A stretch of 40,078 nt of DNA, from contig QZLB01000241.1 of the NCBI GenBank assembly GCA_004796425.1, positions 1 through 40,078 of the forward strand, written 5' to 3'. Both the position numbers and the translations under genes were made by a program. Under the pieces are notes generated by a model. The model had not been told where the DNA came from. It searched no databases and saw nothing but the letters and a program-made list of their open reading frames with translations. Position 1 is the first letter of the stretch. The number at the start of each line of letters is the position of its first letter. This document shows positions 1,091-30,044 of this stretch, one piece after another. This DNA is from Desulfobulbaceae bacterium (lineage in GTDB: Bacteria > Desulfobacterota > Desulfobulbia > Desulfobulbales > Desulfocapsaceae).

Positions 1091-2629
1091 ATGACGAGCA
1101 GTAACAACTACTTACTTGACATACAGGGAATGACCAAAAGTTTCCCTGGGGTCCTTGCCAATGATGGGGTTGATCTGCAGATAAAACCGGGAGAAGTGCA
1201 TGCCCTGCTTGGCGAGAACGGCGCCGGAAAATCCACCCTTGTCAAAATGATTTATGGCATCCTGAAGCCCGATCATGGCACTATCCGAATTAAGGGTACT
1301 CCCGTTACGATTGATGACCCGGCCAAGGCGCGTGAGCTCGGAATTGCCATGGTGTTCCAGCATTTCTCACTGTTCGAATCACTCAACGTGGTCGAAAATA
1401 TCGCCTTGGGCATCCACGCTGATTCGGACCTGAAGAGCCTTGCCAAAGAGGTTGTCGAACTATCTGAACGTTACGGACTTCCCCTTGACCCCAATCGACA
1501 TGTCTATACACTTTCGGTCGGTGAGCGACAACGTATTGAAATCCTCAGGTGCCTGCTTCAAAAGCCGCAGCTGCTGGTCATGGACGAGCCCACTTCCGTT
1601 TTGACGCCGCAGGAGGTTCAAAAACTGTTCATGACCTTGAACCGACTTGCCGAGGAAGGACTTTCCATCTTATACATCAGTCACAAGCTCGATGAAATAA
1701 AGGCACTCTGTCACCGGGCGACCATCCTGAGGATGGGAAAGAAAGTTGCCACGGTGACGGTCAGCGAGCAGAGTACGACGTCTCTTGCCAATATGATGAT
1801 GGGTGAAGCATTTACCGAATCATCCAAAACCAGGAATCGCCAGATCGGCGAGGTTCGACTCAGGGTGAACGATCTTAACACCCAGGCCACCGATGCCACC
1901 GGTATCTCCTTGAAGGATATTAACATCGAGGTCCGAGCAGGAGAAATTGTCGGCATTGCCGGAGTTGCCGGTAATGGCCAGGATGAACTCCTCAAAGCGC
2001 TTAACGGTGAGGAAAGTAATACCGACGCATCCTCGGTTCTCATTGAAGACCGCCAGGCGGGTAAATTGGGCCCCAATGATCGCCGTCGGGCAGGTCTTGC
2101 CAGTGTGCCGGAGAAACGGCTTGGCCATGGCGCCATCCCGGATATGGATCTGATCGATAACGCTTTTATGACCGGATACCAACGTATGGGGCTATTGATC
2201 AGGGGTATTATCAATTATCGGAAAACCAGATCATTCGCCCAGCAGGTCATCAACGATTATGGGGTAAAAACCTCCAGCTCCACAGTCTCGGCAGAAAGTC
2301 TCTCGGGTGGCAACCTGCAGAAATTTATCATTGGTAGAGAGCTCACCCAGCAACCGGATATCCTGGTAGTCTCCCAGCCAACCTGGGGTGTCGATGCCGG
2401 GGCCACCCAGACAATCAGGCAGGCGCTCAGGGATCTGGCAGAACAGGGCGCAGCCGTGTTGATCATTTCACAGGATCTCGATGAGCTGATGGACATTACT
2501 GACCGGATCGGGGCGATCTGTGGTGGTCGGGTCTCATCCTTTTACCCGACGGAATCGGTAACGATTGACCAGGTTGGATTGTTAATGGCCGGTGTTGACC
2601 TTGAAGCGGGAGCCGAACATGCTTCCTAG
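1091..2629 (+). CDS. BMP-family (nucleoside/sugar-type) ABC importer, duplicated ATP-binding subunit
   Basis: Cytoplasmic ATPase of about 512 residues carrying two ABC domains in one chain, as in RbsA and the nucleoside importer ATPase YufO/NupO. Domain 1 is canonical: Walker A GENGAGKST (residues 41-49), signature LSVGE (141-145) and Walker B LLVMDEP (161-167). Domain 2, after about residue 255, is degenerate. Its P-loop is GVAGNGQDE, its signature is LSGGNLQ, and SQP replaces the Walker B DEP, which is usual for this family. I prefer ATG 1091; a TTG at 1076 is also in frame but its only purine-rich stretch abuts it. Two permeases and a BMP lipoprotein-family binding protein follow in one operon. 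The likely substrates are purine or pyrimidine nucleosides, an inference supported by nucleobase salvage genes elsewhere in the window. Confidence 0.9.
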   Translation: MTSSNNYLLDIQGMTKSFPGVLANDGVDLQIKPGEVHALLGENGAGKSTLVKMIYGILKPDHGTIRIKGTPVTIDDPAKARELGIAMVFQHFSLFESLNVVENIALGIHADSDLKSLAKEVVELSERYGLPLDPNRHVYTLSVGERQRIEILRCLLQKPQLLVMDEPTSVLTPQEVQKLFMTLNRLAEEGLSILYISHKLDEIKALCHRATILRMGKKVATVTVSEQSTTSLANMMMGEAFTESSKTRNRQIGEVRLRVNDLNTQATDATGISLKDINIEVRAGEIVGIAGVAGNGQDELLKALNGEESNTDASSVLIEDRQAGKLGPNDRRRAGLASVPEKRLGHGAIPDMDLIDNAFMTGYQRMGLLIRGIINYRKTRSFAQQVINDYGVKTSSSTVSAESLSGGNLQKFIIGRELTQQPDILVVSQPTWGVDAGATQTIRQALRDLAEQGAAVLIISQDLDELMDITDRIGAICGGRVSSFYPTESVTIDQVGLLMAGVDLEAGAEHAS

Positions 2630-3701
2630 TCTCGTCAAACGACAGCAGCCATCAACCCTGATGGTCTACCTCTCACCAGTAATTGCCTTGATCCTCTCAA
2701 TGGTTGCCGGAGTAATCCTCTTTTTAATCATGAAGGTATCTCCGTTCGGCGGACTGCACGCGTTCTTCATCGAACCACTCTCTACCAAATATGGCATTGC
2801 AGAACTTGGTGTGAAAGCAACCCCGCTGGTGCTGATCGGGGTCGCGCTCTCGCTCGGTTTTAAAGCCGGAGTCTGGAATATTGGGGCTGAGGGACAACTC
2901 ACCATTGGTGGGCTCTGTGGCGGAGCGATGGCACTCTATTTCTATGAACAGCAGGGTTTTCACATAATCCCGCTGATCCTTGCAACCGGTATTGTCAGTG
3001 GTATGGCTTATGCATCCATCGTGGCCTTTTTACGGGTAAAGTTCAATGCCAATGAGATACTGACCAGTCTCATGCTCAGTTACGTTGCAGTGTTGTTCTT
3101 GAACCTGATGGTACACGGCCCGCTGAAAGATCCCGATGGCTTCAATTTTCCGGAATCAAGGATGTTCAGTGACTCAGCCCTGCTGCCAATTCTTCTCGAA
3201 GGGACCCGTCTGCATATCGGTGCCCTGCTGGCCCTGACCGTTGTCGCCATTGGTTGGATCGTCATGTCCAAAACCCTGTTGGGGTACCAGATCAAAGCGG
3301 CCGGTTCGGCACCTGCCGCCAGTGAACATGCGGGTTTCAGAAGGTCAAAAGTAATCTGGATCACCTTGTTGATCGGCGGCGGCATTGCCGGCCTTGCCGG
3401 CGCCATCGAAGTGTCCGGACCCATCGGGCAACTGCAACCTTCCATCTCACCGGGTTACGGATTTACGGCCATCATTGTTGCCTACGTGGGCAGGCTGCAC
3501 CCGGTCGGAGCCATGCTTGCCGGAATTCTCCTTGCTCTTACCTATCTGGGAGGTGAAACCGCTCAAATTCAATTGAACCTGCCGGTGGCAGTGACCGGCG
3601 TGTTTCAAGCGCTGCTGCTTTTTTTCCTGTTGGCCTGTGATGTACTGATTCATTACCGGATTCAGTTCACCGAACAAGCCGTGCGAGTGGAGAATACCTG
3701 A
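2619..3701 (+). CDS. BMP-family ABC importer permease, first subunit (YufP/NupP-like)
   Basis: Inner-membrane permease of about 360 residues from the BPD_transp_2 family, with roughly nine or ten hydrophobic helices. The conserved segment AGVWNIGAEGQLTIGG is typical of the nucleoside-type permeases. ATG 2619 is chosen because GGGAG lies 6 nt upstream; a GTG at 2592 is in frame but lies deeper inside the ATPase gene. The start lies within the last 11 bp of the ATPase gene, and the stop shares a base with the next start (TGATG at 3699-3703), so translation is tightly coupled. With the second permease it would form the heterodimeric channel for the substrate delivered by the binding protein at 4666. 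Confidence 0.9.
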   Translation: MLPSLVKRQQPSTLMVYLSPVIALILSMVAGVILFLIMKVSPFGGLHAFFIEPLSTKYGIAELGVKATPLVLIGVALSLGFKAGVWNIGAEGQLTIGGLCGGAMALYFYEQQGFHIIPLILATGIVSGMAYASIVAFLRVKFNANEILTSLMLSYVAVLFLNLMVHGPLKDPDGFNFPESRMFSDSALLPILLEGTRLHIGALLALTVVAIGWIVMSKTLLGYQIKAAGSAPAASEHAGFRRSKVIWITLLIGGGIAGLAGAIEVSGPIGQLQPSISPGYGFTAIIVAYVGRLHPVGAMLAGILLALTYLGGETAQIQLNLPVAVTGVFQALLLFFLLACDVLIHYRIQFTEQAVRVENT

Positions 3702-24981: not shown

Positions 24982-25887
24982 TTAAGGTGAACGAAGGTCT
25001 CTTGCTTTATTGCGCATCATCGGCAGGAGTTGAACCGCTATGATACCGAAAAAGATCATCATTGCTCCTGACAGCTCGCTGTTGTTCATTCGTTCACCAA
25101 GAAATATAAAGCCGGCCATGGCAGCAAACACCGTTTCTGAACTGAGGATGATCGCCGCATCTGCCTCATGGGTAAATCGCTGGCCAACCACTTGCAGAGT
25201 AAAGCCGATCCCGGTTGACAACAGTCCTGCCCAAAGGATGCCAAACAGCGCTGTCTGGAAATCAGCAAGTGCAGGTTGCTCAATGATTACGCCCAGAACT
25301 GTCCCGGTTAGACCGCAGGCAAAGAACTGGCCACAGGCAACGATCAGCGGGGCTTTGGTTTTTGAGGCCATAGTTCCGACCATGATGACATGAAGTGCCC
25401 AGAAAATACTTGAGCTGATCACCCAGAGATCTCCCACCCTTATCTGGATCGCCTCAGCACCGGTCATGACGTAGGTACCAGCCAGGCAAAAGAGCGAAGC
25501 GGGCCAGGCTGACCAATGAACTCGCCGCCTGAGCAGGAAAAATGAGATCAGCGGTACCATGGGAACATAGAGCGCAGTTAGAAATCCGGCATTGGTTACG
25601 GTGGTATGGAAGATGCCGTATTGTTGCAGCGCTGCTGCCGTAAACAATATCACACCGGTTATCAGGATCCCGAACCAGTGCAGTGAGCTCACCGGGGTTC
25701 CCTCACGTTCCATGGCGCGGTATTGACGAAACGCAAAAGGAAAGACAAAGCAGGCGCCAAGTAACATCCTGACACCGGTAAAGGTAATTGCCTGGAGGCC
25801 TCCGGTTCCGACCTGCTGAACCACAAAGGTAGAACCCCAGATCAAGGCCGCCAGCAGTAATAGTGCATTTGCCTGTAGTCTGCTCAT
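24982..25887 (-). CDS. EamA/DMT-family transporter
   Basis: About 301 residues with ten predicted helices arranged as two EamA repeats. The first begins LLLLAALIWGSTFVVQQVG and the second near DLWVISSSIFWALHVIMVG. ATG 25887 is chosen because GGAG lies 6 nt upstream; a TTG four codons earlier is in frame. Family members export metabolites such as amino acids or nucleosides, but the substrate cannot be predicted. It precedes upp and uraA on the same strand with a 232-bp gap, so it may have its own transcript. No classical terminator lies between them. Confidence 0.85.
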   Translation of the reverse strand: MSRLQANALLLLAALIWGSTFVVQQVGTGGLQAITFTGVRMLLGACFVFPFAFRQYRAMEREGTPVSSLHWFGILITGVILFTAAALQQYGIFHTTVTNAGFLTALYVPMVPLISFFLLRRRVHWSAWPASLFCLAGTYVMTGAEAIQIRVGDLWVISSSIFWALHVIMVGTMASKTKAPLIVACGQFFACGLTGTVLGVIIEQPALADFQTALFGILWAGLLSTGIGFTLQVVGQRFTHEADAAIILSSETVFAAMAGFIFLGERMNNSELSGAMMIFFGIIAVQLLPMMRNKARDLRSP

Positions 25888-26135
25888 AACCTGCTCCAAT
25901 CCCCTCTGCCCGCATGCGATTCCTGATGGTCACCGCTATTCAGCGGCTGCCAGAGTATACTTGGTCGAAGCTTTTTTGCAAGTGCACTTTTGCTCCTGTT
26001 TTTTAAGGTTTAATTACCCCTGCCAAAAGAAGTTGTAAATCAAAAGAGGTAATGGTACTACATAGTTCCGTTATGAGGTTTGGCGACTGGAGAGCGTATT
26101 TATCCCTTAATGTATGAACTGTGAAAGGAGTGGTG

Positions 26136-28265
26136 ATGTTTGGAAAATCATCAAAACAAACCGGCCTGATGTTCTCTGTTCAATGTGTTATTTTTCTACT
26201 TTTTCTGGTTTTCTCGAAAAATGCGTTGAGCGATGACTCAAGTTGTATCGTCTGTCATACCGATATCGATCTACTTGAGGAAAATCTCGGCAAAACCAAA
26301 ACGAAAAAATCCGCGCTGCAAGCGGGAAGCGGCTGAGGCGGCGCCGTGGCTCCGTTGGAGCCACAGGAAAAAGTTCTGGTATCAGAAGAATTTCTCGAGT
26401 CTGCTCACGGTGAGCTCGCCTGTACCGATTGTCACGGGGGCGACAATAGTGCACCTGACAAAGAAAGTGCCCATGAGGGTTTTGAACCGCACCCCTCAGT
26501 CAACAATCCCCAGGAAACCTGCGGTGAATGCCACGAGGAAATAGCAGAATCGGCACCCGACTCGCTCCATGCAACCCTTAAGACCTTCCCCGGTTACCTC
26601 AAGAAGAGAAGCAGCGATGAGACCTGGCCGACCATCGACGAGGGACGAGAACGTCATTGCGCATCTTGTCACGCCAGTTGTGGTGCCTGCCATGTAAGCA
26701 GACCCAAGTATGTGGGAACCGGTTTTATTGATGGCCATATGTTTAACGCCAAACCCGATCCGGTAAATCAATGTACCGCTTGTCATGGTAGCCGGATTGG
26801 CAACGAGTTTTTCGGCAATCGCGGACAGGGTGATATCCATCTGAGAAAATTTACCATGACCTGTCGCGATTGCCACGGCGCAGAGGAGATGCATGCCGCT
26901 GCTCCCGAGGATCTTGAAAACCGTTACCATCTCGCAGAAGCGGCCAACTGCAGGGATTGCCATCAGGATCTGCAATTCGGCTCAGTTCGTGAGCATCGAA
27001 TCCATAATAATACCGTCCAGTGCCAGGTGTGCCACTCCCAGACCTACACCAATTGCTACAGCTGTCATACCGGTACCGATGAGGATGGTATTGCCTATTT
27101 TATTAACAACCTCGATTTTGAGGATATGAAGATCGGCTTCAACCCGGATCGTATTCCGGGGAACAACTATAAGTGGGTTCTACTTCGCCATGTACCGGTT
27201 GACCCACACGTCTTTGATTATTACATCAAAGATGGCTTCCCGAAATTTGACGTTGCTTCAACCTGGAAACGGACCTCCCCTCATAATATCCAGCGACGTA
27301 CCTGGCAAAATGTTAACTGTAACAACTGTCATGGTCAGCGCGACCTCTTTCTCGCGGAAAGTGACCTGCTCAACTACGAGATAAAAGCGAACTATGGTTT
27401 GACGGTAACTGATGAACAGATACCCAAAAAACGGGCCCGCACCATGGCTGTCAACATTGATACGTCTGGGGTCATAGAATCACGGGTGGTTGATGTCGCC
27501 TGGCTCAACGAGCACCTCGATGACGACGGGTTGGTTATCATTGACGCCAGGAGTGAATCGCTCTGGGAACAAGAACATATCCCCGGAGCCATCAGTCTTG
27601 ATCCTAACAACCCTGAAGAATTACGTAAAGCAGCAACTTCCGAAGCTCCTTTGCAATTGGAGGATGCAGAGTCGCTTGGTGAGATTCTTGGAGAATATGG
27701 GATGAGCGCTGATGATCATATTATCGTCTATTGCGACAAAGGTCAGAATGGCGGATTCCTGCTGTCGGTTCTCGATTATGCGGGGGCTAAAAACATCTCA
27801 TTTCTCAACGGTGGCATTGCCGCCTGGAAAAAGGCTGGCTATGAGCTTACCGATGAAGATACCGACTATGATGAAAAAACCTTTGAGGTTAACCTGCGCA
27901 CAGAACTGCTGGTGGACAATGATTTCGTGAAAGCCAATCTGGACAACCCCAATGTGGTTATTGTCGATGTCAGGATTCTCCAACAATCCATGGGGTTCCT
28001 CAAGCACGGGCTTGCTGCCCGACCTGGCCGTGTACCAGGATCGGTACAGTTCCCGATCTTTGGCCTGTATGAGGACCATTCCGGTATCAAACCCGCCGAG
28101 GAATTGCTCTGGGTCCTCAAAGAGCGGAATATTCCAAAACATAAAACCATCGTGGTGACCTGCAATACCGGCATGTGGGCGGGTGCGTCCCAATACATCT
28201 TCCGCTACCTCGGCTATCCGGATGTTAAGGTGCATGATGAATCTTGGATCGGTTGGAATGATTAG
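26136..28265 (+). CDS. 11-haem cytochrome c fused to two rhodanese domains, with a probable selenocysteine (TGA) codon
   Basis: About 709 residues if the TGA at 26334-26336 is read as selenocysteine 67. ATG 26136 has AAAGGAG 5 nt upstream and gives a Sec signal (core VIFLLFLVFSKNALS). One CIVCH site (C37) lies before the TGA and ten CxxCH sites follow (about 96, 129, 175, 182, 213, 243, 272, 296, 307, 395). Two rhodanese domains come last (about 450-575 and 590-709), with candidate catalytic cysteines in CDKGQNGG (C533) and CNTGMWAG (C676). The Sec context is GSG-U-GGA. Stopping at TGA would leave a 66-residue one-haem peptide. Starting after it (GTG 26346) would leave haem protein without an export signal. 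Both halves share one frame, and a SECIS-like hairpin follows. Likely role: periplasmic electron transfer coupled to sulfur or selenium chemistry. A pseudogene is possible but less likely. Confidence 0.82.
26334..26364 (+). promoter_or_regulatory. UGA codon and candidate bacterial SECIS hairpin
   Basis: After TGA (26334-26336) come nine bases, then GTGGCTCC (26346-26353) and GGAGCCAC (26357-26364) forming a perfect 8-bp stem around the loop GTT. The first loop base is G and is the 18th nucleotide after the UGA. This fits the published bacterial SECIS pattern of a stem-loop just after UGA, a G in the first two loop bases and a spacing of about 16-37 nt. The hairpin lies wholly within the coding frame. 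Confidence 0.72.
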
Positions 28266-28375: not shown

Positions 28376-29821
28376 CTAAATTCCTTTCATCACCTTCAGG
28401 ATCTCAGGATCTTTTTCATCCTCGGCCAGAATAATATGGCACGCTTCGCAGTCCATGGAGATGGTTTCACCACTACTGGTCTCGTGCTCATCATCATGGC
28501 ACCGAAAACAGCCTGAATTATTCTGGTGACCGCGCAGACTTCGATAGGTGTTCCATTTAATCTTCATCGAAGGCCAGACATTTTCCAGGTAGGCGGCCTG
28601 CACCCCCTCGATGGCCTTGTTGAGCATCGGCATGTTATTATTTACAATTTCACTGTATTTCAAACGATACCAAGCTCTGAGCTCGGTAGCAATCTGGTTC
28701 TTGGCAACTTCATGACTGGGATATTCCCGTGTTATGAGCTCGTAACCAATCTTTTTGATAAATGGCAGTTCACTCGAAATGGCCCCAAGAATGATCTTCT
28801 CGTCCAATGCTTCATCGGGTGTTTTGTAGATATGGGTCGGACGGTTATGGCAATCGACACAATCCATCTCACGTTCATACACTTCGCCATTGGTGGCGGT
28901 TGCTTCTTCACCCTTGTTGAACACAACCTTGGTACCGTCTAGCTTGGTCAGGGTGACCTCGAAAATATCTTCACGTTCCCAATCTTTATGGCGGTAGGTT
29001 ATTTTATTATCTTCGGCAACATGCCAGTGAATGCCGTGAGCCTCGGAACCCTTGTAACCACCTGAGCCGACTTTAAGCAGTAAAACGGTTTGCACATGGG
29101 TGTTCTTCTCATCAGAGAGGATCTTGTCCTTGATATAGAGTTTATCGCCATGAAAAAGTTCCGGACGATGACACTCTTCACAGGTATCGCGAGCCGGACG
29201 CAAACCATGTACCGGTGTCTCAATCGGTGTTGCATAGGATTTTGCAACCACGGCCACCAACTGCCGGGTACCGGACAATTTTGACTTCACAAACCATTGT
29301 GCACCTGAACCAATATGACACTCGACACATTTGACCCGTGAATGGGGAGAATTGGAATAGGTTGCATATTCCGGTTCCATAACCGTATGACAGAGTTGTC
29401 CGCAAAAAGCGTTGGACTCCGTGTAATGATAACCGGTGTAGGCTAGCAGAATAATGACAAAGACATTCACAAAAGTCAGGCTGGTGCCAAGAAAAATCAG
29501 TTTACGGACCTTGATGAAATTCTCCGGCACTGAGAGTTTTTCACTCAAATACTCATGGGTAAACAGGCCAACATCTTCTGTTCCTTTAAAGAAAAACAGG
29601 CCGAGAAAAATCAGGACCAATCCCAAGATAAAGGCCGGTGCAACAAACATGTAGAGTACAAAACCGAAGTACTGATTATGGATAATCCCAAACAGTTCTA
29701 GGAGGATGCCGATGAACAGAATCGGAAATGCTGCCGTCGTCATGGTTGTCCCGAAAAGCGAGACCTTACTTCGGGCAATACCCCTGATGAAAGCCTTGAT
29801 AATATGCGTGAACTTAACCAC
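28376..29821 (-). CDS. NapC/NirT-like six-haem membrane cytochrome c (probable quinol dehydrogenase)
   Basis: About 481 residues from GTG 29821, which has GGGAGG 7 nt upstream; the frame is open back to 30016 but that part lacks coding character. Three hydrophobic helices (about 25-48, 52-78, 106-130) are followed by a large periplasmic domain. The first haem motif is CGQLCH, with three residues between the cysteines (140-145). Regular sites follow: CVECH (165), CEECH (214), CVDCH (321), CFRCH (438), CEACH (458). The block around MEPEYATYSNSPHSRVKCVECH is NapC/NrfH-like. It would oxidise menaquinol and feed periplasmic cytochromes such as the rhodanese cytochrome it converges with. It is longer than NapC (about 200 residues) because of the two extra helices and the C-terminal haem region. 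Confidence 0.85.
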   Translation of the reverse strand: MVKFTHIIKAFIRGIARSKVSLFGTTMTTAAFPILFIGILLELFGIIHNQYFGFVLYMFVAPAFILGLVLIFLGLFFFKGTEDVGLFTHEYLSEKLSVPENFIKVRKLIFLGTSLTFVNVFVIILLAYTGYHYTESNAFCGQLCHTVMEPEYATYSNSPHSRVKCVECHIGSGAQWFVKSKLSGTRQLVAVVAKSYATPIETPVHGLRPARDTCEECHRPELFHGDKLYIKDKILSDEKNTHVQTVLLLKVGSGGYKGSEAHGIHWHVAEDNKITYRHKDWEREDIFEVTLTKLDGTKVVFNKGEEATATNGEVYEREMDCVDCHNRPTHIYKTPDEALDEKIILGAISSELPFIKKIGYELITREYPSHEVAKNQIATELRAWYRLKYSEIVNNNMPMLNKAIEGVQAAYLENVWPSMKIKWNTYRSLRGHQNNSGCFRCHDDEHETSSGETISMDCEACHIILAEDEKDPEILKVMKGI

Positions 29822-30044
29822 GATCCTCCCTCCCTGTTTTAACCGCGATTTTGAACTCTGCTGCTCTATCTCTCTCTGCTGGTCTGGGAAATGTACTACA
29901 TTGTGCATCGAAATTAAATGAATTTCTCCTGAGTCAGAATATCGTATCGGAGGTTTTTTTTTGTCAGGAAAGAAAAAATTCCTGAAACAATTATTTAAAC
30001 TAATAATAACTCGCAAAACCGAGAATCAGTGATAATAGTAGTGC

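Follow-up and report, generated by a model that had tools for sequence, protein, structure and literature searches.

Cytochrome selenoproteins are represented in a May 2026 review by ExtKL and by a GenBank-annotated selenocysteine (Sec) form of the TIGR04315 family, with several rhodanese forms also covered (PMC13188914). ExtKL (NF040886, cyt_C_like_Sec) was predicted in 2007 from the pair GSU2937 and GSU2936 (PMC1914089), and its link to selenite reduction rests on preliminary data only (PMC5877670). TIGR04315 is the family of octaheme tetrathionate reductase (OTR), whose structure 1sp3 serves as the reference below, and a further point of comparison is provided by the two-domain rhodaneses.

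The locus analyzed here lies in a 40,078-nt stretch of DNA from a Desulfobulbaceae bacterium (contig QZLB01000241.1, hereafter the window) and comprises a forward-strand coding region for 709 residues (26136-28265, stop TAG at 28263-28265). On translation, the only internal stop in this frame is the TGA at 26334-26336, codon 67, in the context GSG-U-GGA. A ribosome-binding site read in the sequence as AGGAG (26126-26130) stands 5 nt 5' of the ATG at 26136, and the N-terminus carries a signal peptide of approximately residues 1-32 (26136-26231, end judged by eye), with residues 6-29 forming a helix in the predicted structure. By sequence count, the protein has 11 CxxCH haem-binding motifs, one N-terminal to the TGA and ten C-terminal: motif 1 is CIVCH (residues 37-41; 26244-26258), 5' of the Sec codon and invariant in A4/A5, and motifs 2-11 are found at residues 96, 129, 175, 182, 213, 243, 272, 296, 307 and 395 (26421-27332), so that, going by comparison with homologues, the putative Sec67 falls between motifs 1 and 2. 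Two rhodanese domains complete the protein, the first at residues 454-567 (27495-27836, from Pfam), and the second at approximately residues 592-701 (27909-28238, from Pfam, structure and alignment) with the active-site loop CNTGMWA and the active-site cysteine Cys676 (28161-28163), which is invariant in 34/34 fused proteins. Structure prediction for all 709 residues is confident (pLDDT 88.9, pTM 0.86).

This architecture bears out the initial annotation, made from the letters alone, in its frame, length and Sec67 context, as well as in its signal peptide, its one plus ten haem motifs and its two rhodanese domains, all seen in the sequence and by Pfam. Also borne out is the expectation that automatic annotation would split the gene: under translation table 11 the outcome is a 66-residue peptide plus a 639-residue ORF that starts at GTG 26346 and has no signal peptide. 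Current annotation thereby removes the N-terminus, including signal peptide and first haem, and the protein looks cytoplasmic. We consider it very likely that the product of the gene is a selenoprotein, a secreted c-type cytochrome with eleven haems and hairpin-directed Sec67, from an apparently undescribed rhodanese-partnered family, both Sec incorporation and substrate being unproven.

As with ExtKL, the window protein is predicted to be a periplasmic multihaem c-type cytochrome selenoprotein of the Desulfobacterota, and the ExtKL system likewise has a rhodanese (ExtH). ExtKL, however, has five haems and a C-terminal Sec (PDG-U-PTPNR), whereas the window protein has eleven haems and places Sec between haems 1 and 2. 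We rejected identity with ExtKL, with NF040886 absent from the matches listed for E values of 1 or less, and the true ExtKL of the window genome lying on another contig (C27:803-2101, locus L070; 566 bits), where five haems are followed by a TGA in that same C-terminal motif. A suggestion in the initial annotation, that the adjacent extK and extL genes of Geobacter sulfurreducens might be split at an equivalent UGA, proved inapplicable here, as no ext genes adjoin the window gene and both the Sec position and the family differ.

The ext cluster nevertheless raises one functional alternative, namely that the window protein is a selenite or tellurite reductase or detoxifier, as proposed for that cluster in Geobacter. 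Both systems pair a Sec cytochrome with a rhodanese, the pair in the ext cluster (ExtKL, ExtH) having been linked to selenite reduction (PMC5877670), and the window protein gives weak profile matches to ExtM, ExtN, ExtO and ExtH. These matches fall far below cut-off, however, and a detoxifying role sits poorly with the lack of adjoining ext genes, with a core that resembles tetrathionate reductase and with the occurrence of relatives in sulfur-cycling lineages (e.g., Desulfocapsa and Desulfofustis), leaving it unlikely in our judgment. Nor did we find an existing name for the family: no NCBIfam model (June 2026) reached its curated cut-off with the window protein or with any of nine relatives also scanned, the protein is absent from the prokaryotic selenoprotein families in the May 2026 review (PMC13188914), and no paper on it was found in the open literature, most subscription papers being outside the search. 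Apparently, then, the family is undescribed so far, which is likely rather than certain.

With OTR (TIGR04315; 1sp3), the window protein has the haem core in common, but OTR has eight haems, whereas the window protein has eleven, together with an N-terminal haem 1-Sec-haem 2 module and the rhodanese part. All 31 of the further members checked (31/31) contain exactly eleven CxxCH motifs. An hhalign comparison with OTR (probability 97.7%, E = 1.5e-12) places window motifs 3-9 against OTR motifs 1-7, and motifs 3-9 and, by position, motif 11 form what is, on this alignment, a predicted OTR-like octaheme core. The TIGR04315 profile itself gives the window protein 18 bits against a curated cut-off of 375. 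At the structural level, VIA-align matches the predicted cytochrome domain to 1sp3 at Z 8.1 over 217 residues with rmsd 4.3, a Z value close to the noise that helical proteins give, and a Foldseek search of the cytochrome domain alone against the PDB gave no significant match. Since the structural match is near noise, the relationship of the window haem core to OTR, which we accept as one of shared ancestry, is supported mainly by hhalign. Single in-frame TGA codons were also seen in some TIGR04315 members (G043:C171, G085:C168, G068:C110 and G125:C388), which are likely Sec forms.

Several residues are nearly invariant in Sec forms and switched in the non-Sec clade described below (G218, R220, E224, H352, P354 and W377). 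The first three of these lie in a loop C-terminal to haem motif 6 (G218-x-R220-x3-E224; 26787-26807) that switches along with Sec67 and is aligned to the OTR loop containing Lys153 of 1sp3, the residue that serves OTR as an unusual ligand to its active-site haem. In the window family, R220 and E224 of the loop are conserved and no Lys is invariant, and the alignment is loose there. As a lead only, these observations suggest that Sec67 may act in an OTR-type active site, with the caveat that a switch in one clade could equally be plain divergence. Only nine non-motif His residues are invariant or nearly so for eleven haems, from which we infer that up to two haems may be open or otherwise bound.

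For the rhodanese part, PF00581 matches the window protein at 119 bits in two stretches, and the C-terminal 260 residues of the predicted structure match the two-domain rhodaneses 1uar, 1e0c and 1urh at Z of approximately 29-32 and rmsd of 1.9-2.4, with the MST model scoring 92 bits where its cut-off is 250. The likeness to two-domain rhodaneses and mercaptopyruvate sulfurtransferase thus consists in the C-terminal fold and the active Cys676; unlike the two-domain rhodaneses, the rhodanese of the window protein forms part of a secreted multihaem cytochrome. Asp in domain 1 is the usual inactive pattern of double-rhodanese pairs, and most relatives have Asp at the domain 1 active-site position, where the window protein has Cys533.

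Nearly all subfamilies examined have a rhodanese, either as a fused part or as the product of a gene just downstream. For instance, the next downstream gene of unfused members encodes a double-domain rhodanese in several groups, and in further unfused cases at least one rhodanese domain was detected by Pfam directly downstream in 10/10. The presence of this gene where the fusion is absent strengthens the sulfur link that the initial annotation had drawn from the fused domains. No rhodanese was detected downstream of the member at L118, an Anaerolineae MAG; here (L118:3626-4852) the member gene precedes one for a nine-haem cytochrome and another ORF, membrane-protein-like and with two haem motifs. 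Separately, a rhodanese gene with one in-frame TGA (G061:C9:23930-24694) possibly represents a known Sec rhodanese form.

That the window protein has a sulfur-compound redox role, as a periplasmic enzyme of sulfane-sulfur compounds, is an inference that we hold with roughly even confidence, the substrate being unproven. In such an enzyme, the selenol or selenolate of Sec67, placed in or close to a haem active site, would attack a sulfane-sulfur substrate—polysulfide, thiosulfate, tetrathionate or an S0-derived persulfide—to give an Se-S intermediate, with electrons supplied or removed by the haem chain and with rhodanese Cys676, as a persulfide, acting as donor or acceptor of sulfane sulfur. 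In sulfur-cycling bacteria, whose enzymes for reducing and disproportionating sulfur have yet to be settled, selenium would in this way be tied both to electron transfer by periplasmic multihaem proteins and to the handling of sulfane sulfur.

Eleven haems would also fit a plain electron relay between the membrane and the outside, in which Sec is a structural or tuning residue. The non-Sec clade offers some support for such a relay, having Tyr at the Sec column and, just upstream, a gene for a DUF3373 protein, possibly an outer-membrane barrel (seen at the loci L063:5814-7601 and L064:2449-4488); this neighbor of the Tyr/Cys form suggests a barrel-cytochrome pair. Sec is costly, however, and yet is kept almost without exception in the family, several residues switch along with it, and the rhodanese coupling points to sulfur chemistry, so that a mere relay seems doubtful to us, and we continue to favor an enzyme of sulfane-sulfur compounds.

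A narrower version of the enzymatic proposal, for which we have no haem-bearing structure and which remains only a tentative possibility, is that a c-type haem has Sec67 either as a natural axial ligand, in selenolate form, or as an immediate partner in its active site, at the place of the OTR lysine. Sec, Cys and Tyr are all able to bind haem iron, and because Sec is usually replaced by Tyr rather than by Cys, the chemistry of Sec may not be simple thiol/selenol chemistry. Cys-ligated haems carrying sulfur adducts are known in TsdA and SoxA (PMC4423706), which would resemble the window protein in having a chalcogen side chain on a c-type haem that acts on sulfane sulfur; TsdA and SoxA are dihaem-type, unlike the eleven-haem window protein, and serve as precedent only, with no homology claimed. 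With the natural Sec-to-Tyr/Cys clade as control, the family allows the idea of Sec at a haem centre to be put to the test, and if Sec67 does prove to be a haem ligand, its members would make up a new class of periplasmic enzymes for sulfur compounds, with joint action of a selenocysteine-haem centre and a rhodanese.

The reading of UGA 67 as Sec draws on TGA codons at the same column in approximately 69 distinct homologues, from several phyla and with identities down to approximately 33%. We searched 146 genomes of the same order as the window genome for fused and non-fused relatives, and found nine fused relatives (52-55% identity) that all have one TGA in the context SG[SA]G-U-GG[AK], a second, unfused group of 11 members (35-39%) that all have TGA in the context AG-U-GV, and a third, fused group (36-39%) with no stop. 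Overlapping partly with these order-level homologues, TGA also occupies the Sec column in 38 named genome contigs, from Desulfobulbaceae, Desulfocapsaceae, Desulfosarcina, Syntrophaceae, a Geobacteraceae MAG, Desulfuromusa, Nitrospirae, Anaerolineae and Rokubacteria. Surveying the phylum (395 genomes) with no selection for a stop, we obtained 52 matches in 48 genomes, with TGA in 50/52, the remaining two being a Tyr form (G012) and a match that begins past the Sec column (G146). Where examined, the TGA in these survey matches lies in the same motif, which in the most distant subfamily takes the form EGEG-U-AG. What is added is thus a conserved, widespread selenoprotein family found in 48/395 sampled genomes of its phylum, all but one or two in the UGA form. 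A plasmid search for the family gave no full-length match.

The initial annotation had proposed searching homologues for Sec, Cys or Ser at the aligned position, together with an intact frame. TGA is present in every Sec subfamily, and the non-Sec forms belong to one clade in which both halves are one protein with an intact frame; as for the residues, Sec was found, Cys in one case (L034; n = 1) and Ser in none (n = 0), the usual replacement being Tyr (n = 8). A tree of 78 cytochrome domains, built by a quick method and rooted at its midpoint, with some branches long, gathers the 9 non-Sec rows in a single clade that excludes all 69 Sec rows, and since two changes explain all states in the tree, Sec appears to be ancestral in the family and to have been lost once. 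Codons 5' of the TGA show dN of 0.15-0.31 against dS that is >1 or saturated, and this purifying selection speaks against a decayed leader. Most family-bearing genomes are MAGs; a sequencing error or decaying stop, which would have refuted the original proposal, is excluded by a TGA that dozens of genomes have conserved and that is flanked on either side by codons with low dN/dS.

Downstream of the UGA, a SECIS-like hairpin (26346-26364; GTGGCTCC-GTT-GGAGCCAC) occupies the position 10-28 nt 3' of it. Its 8-bp stem, GUU loop and loop G at 18 nt 3' of the UGA are as first described, and it is the sole perfect 8-bp/3-nt hairpin in the 40-kb window, where approximately 0.6 would be expected (1/4^8 count). 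Taken singly, the 45-nt sequence folds in a way that stands out only moderately (z -1.9), and the weight of the hairpin comes from its conservation and not from single-sequence folding energy. Within a gap-free alignment of 39 sequences, pairing in the stem holds for 95.7% of cells and 5/8 stem pairs exhibit compensatory changes on both sides, values that none of the shuffles reach (0/500), with the caveat that kinship among the 39 sequences inflates covariation counts; RNAalifold, unprompted, recovers the same stem. For instance, CCG-TTG has become CAG-TTA in two relatives (L094 and L022), changing Pro to Gln, and GAG has become GGG opposite a GCT-to-GCC change in another (L091), replacing Glu by Gly, with the pair kept in each case. 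RNA pairing thus appears to overrule protein sequence at the putative hairpin. The loop Leu codon is TTG or TTA in 39/39, compared with 17% of Leu codons elsewhere in the same genes, and no such hairpin is left in the Tyr/Cys clade.

The genome also holds the machinery that the initial annotation had proposed looking for, with tRNA-Sec (73.8 bits), SelB (364), SelA (615) and SelD (359) all detected; the SelD gene (C311:2-904) itself has an in-frame TGA, consistent with a Sec-containing selenophosphate synthetase. Across the phylum sample, SelA is near-universal, being found in 44/48 family-bearing genomes against 355/395 (90%) of all genomes sampled, and its co-occurrence with the family is therefore necessary but not discriminating, and was dropped as proof. 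The four TGA-form genomes in which SelA was not found (G212, G292, G299 and G355) likely lack the relevant contigs. There is no protein-level evidence of Sec, and yet the comparative record leaves us little doubt that the window gene is a selenoprotein gene in which UGA 67 is read as Sec.

Were the TGA instead a real stop, a short secreted peptide would be followed by a second protein restarting at GTG 26346. A GAGG (26335-26338) does lie 7 nt 5' of this GTG, and GTG or TTG occupies the codon in 35/39 relatives; the codon is not kept in all, however, being GTA, GTT or CTG in four relatives and other codons in a separate-rhodanese subfamily, and the restart product would have no signal peptide, although c-type haem attachment is periplasmic. 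The Tyr/Cys clade, where both halves are one protein, and the unselected searches, in which the internal stop is TGA, with TAA or TAG only additional and at gene ends where examined, further make such a restart highly improbable. Reading of the UGA by another route (Trp suppression, or leaky readthrough, which would need no extra machinery) or a decaying gene, MAG error also being possible, is scarcely credible beside a TGA kept across several phyla with a covarying hairpin, TGA as the ordinary stop of 10/32 long ORFs in the window, and a non-Sec clade with Tyr or Cys but never Trp.

Within the 40-kb window, the gene whose UGA we read as Sec is solitary and not in a sulfur operon, and for the fused form we found no conserved gene neighbors outside its closest relatives. 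The locus is flanked on the reverse strand by genes for an NrfH/NapC-like multihaem cytochrome (28376-30016) and an EamA-like transporter (24982-25899), which are retained in four and three close relatives, respectively. At another locus (L059; G058:C204), a gene for a window-type selenoprotein (51-2120) and one for an NF040886 (ExtKL-type) selenoprotein (2237-3388) are convergent neighbors.
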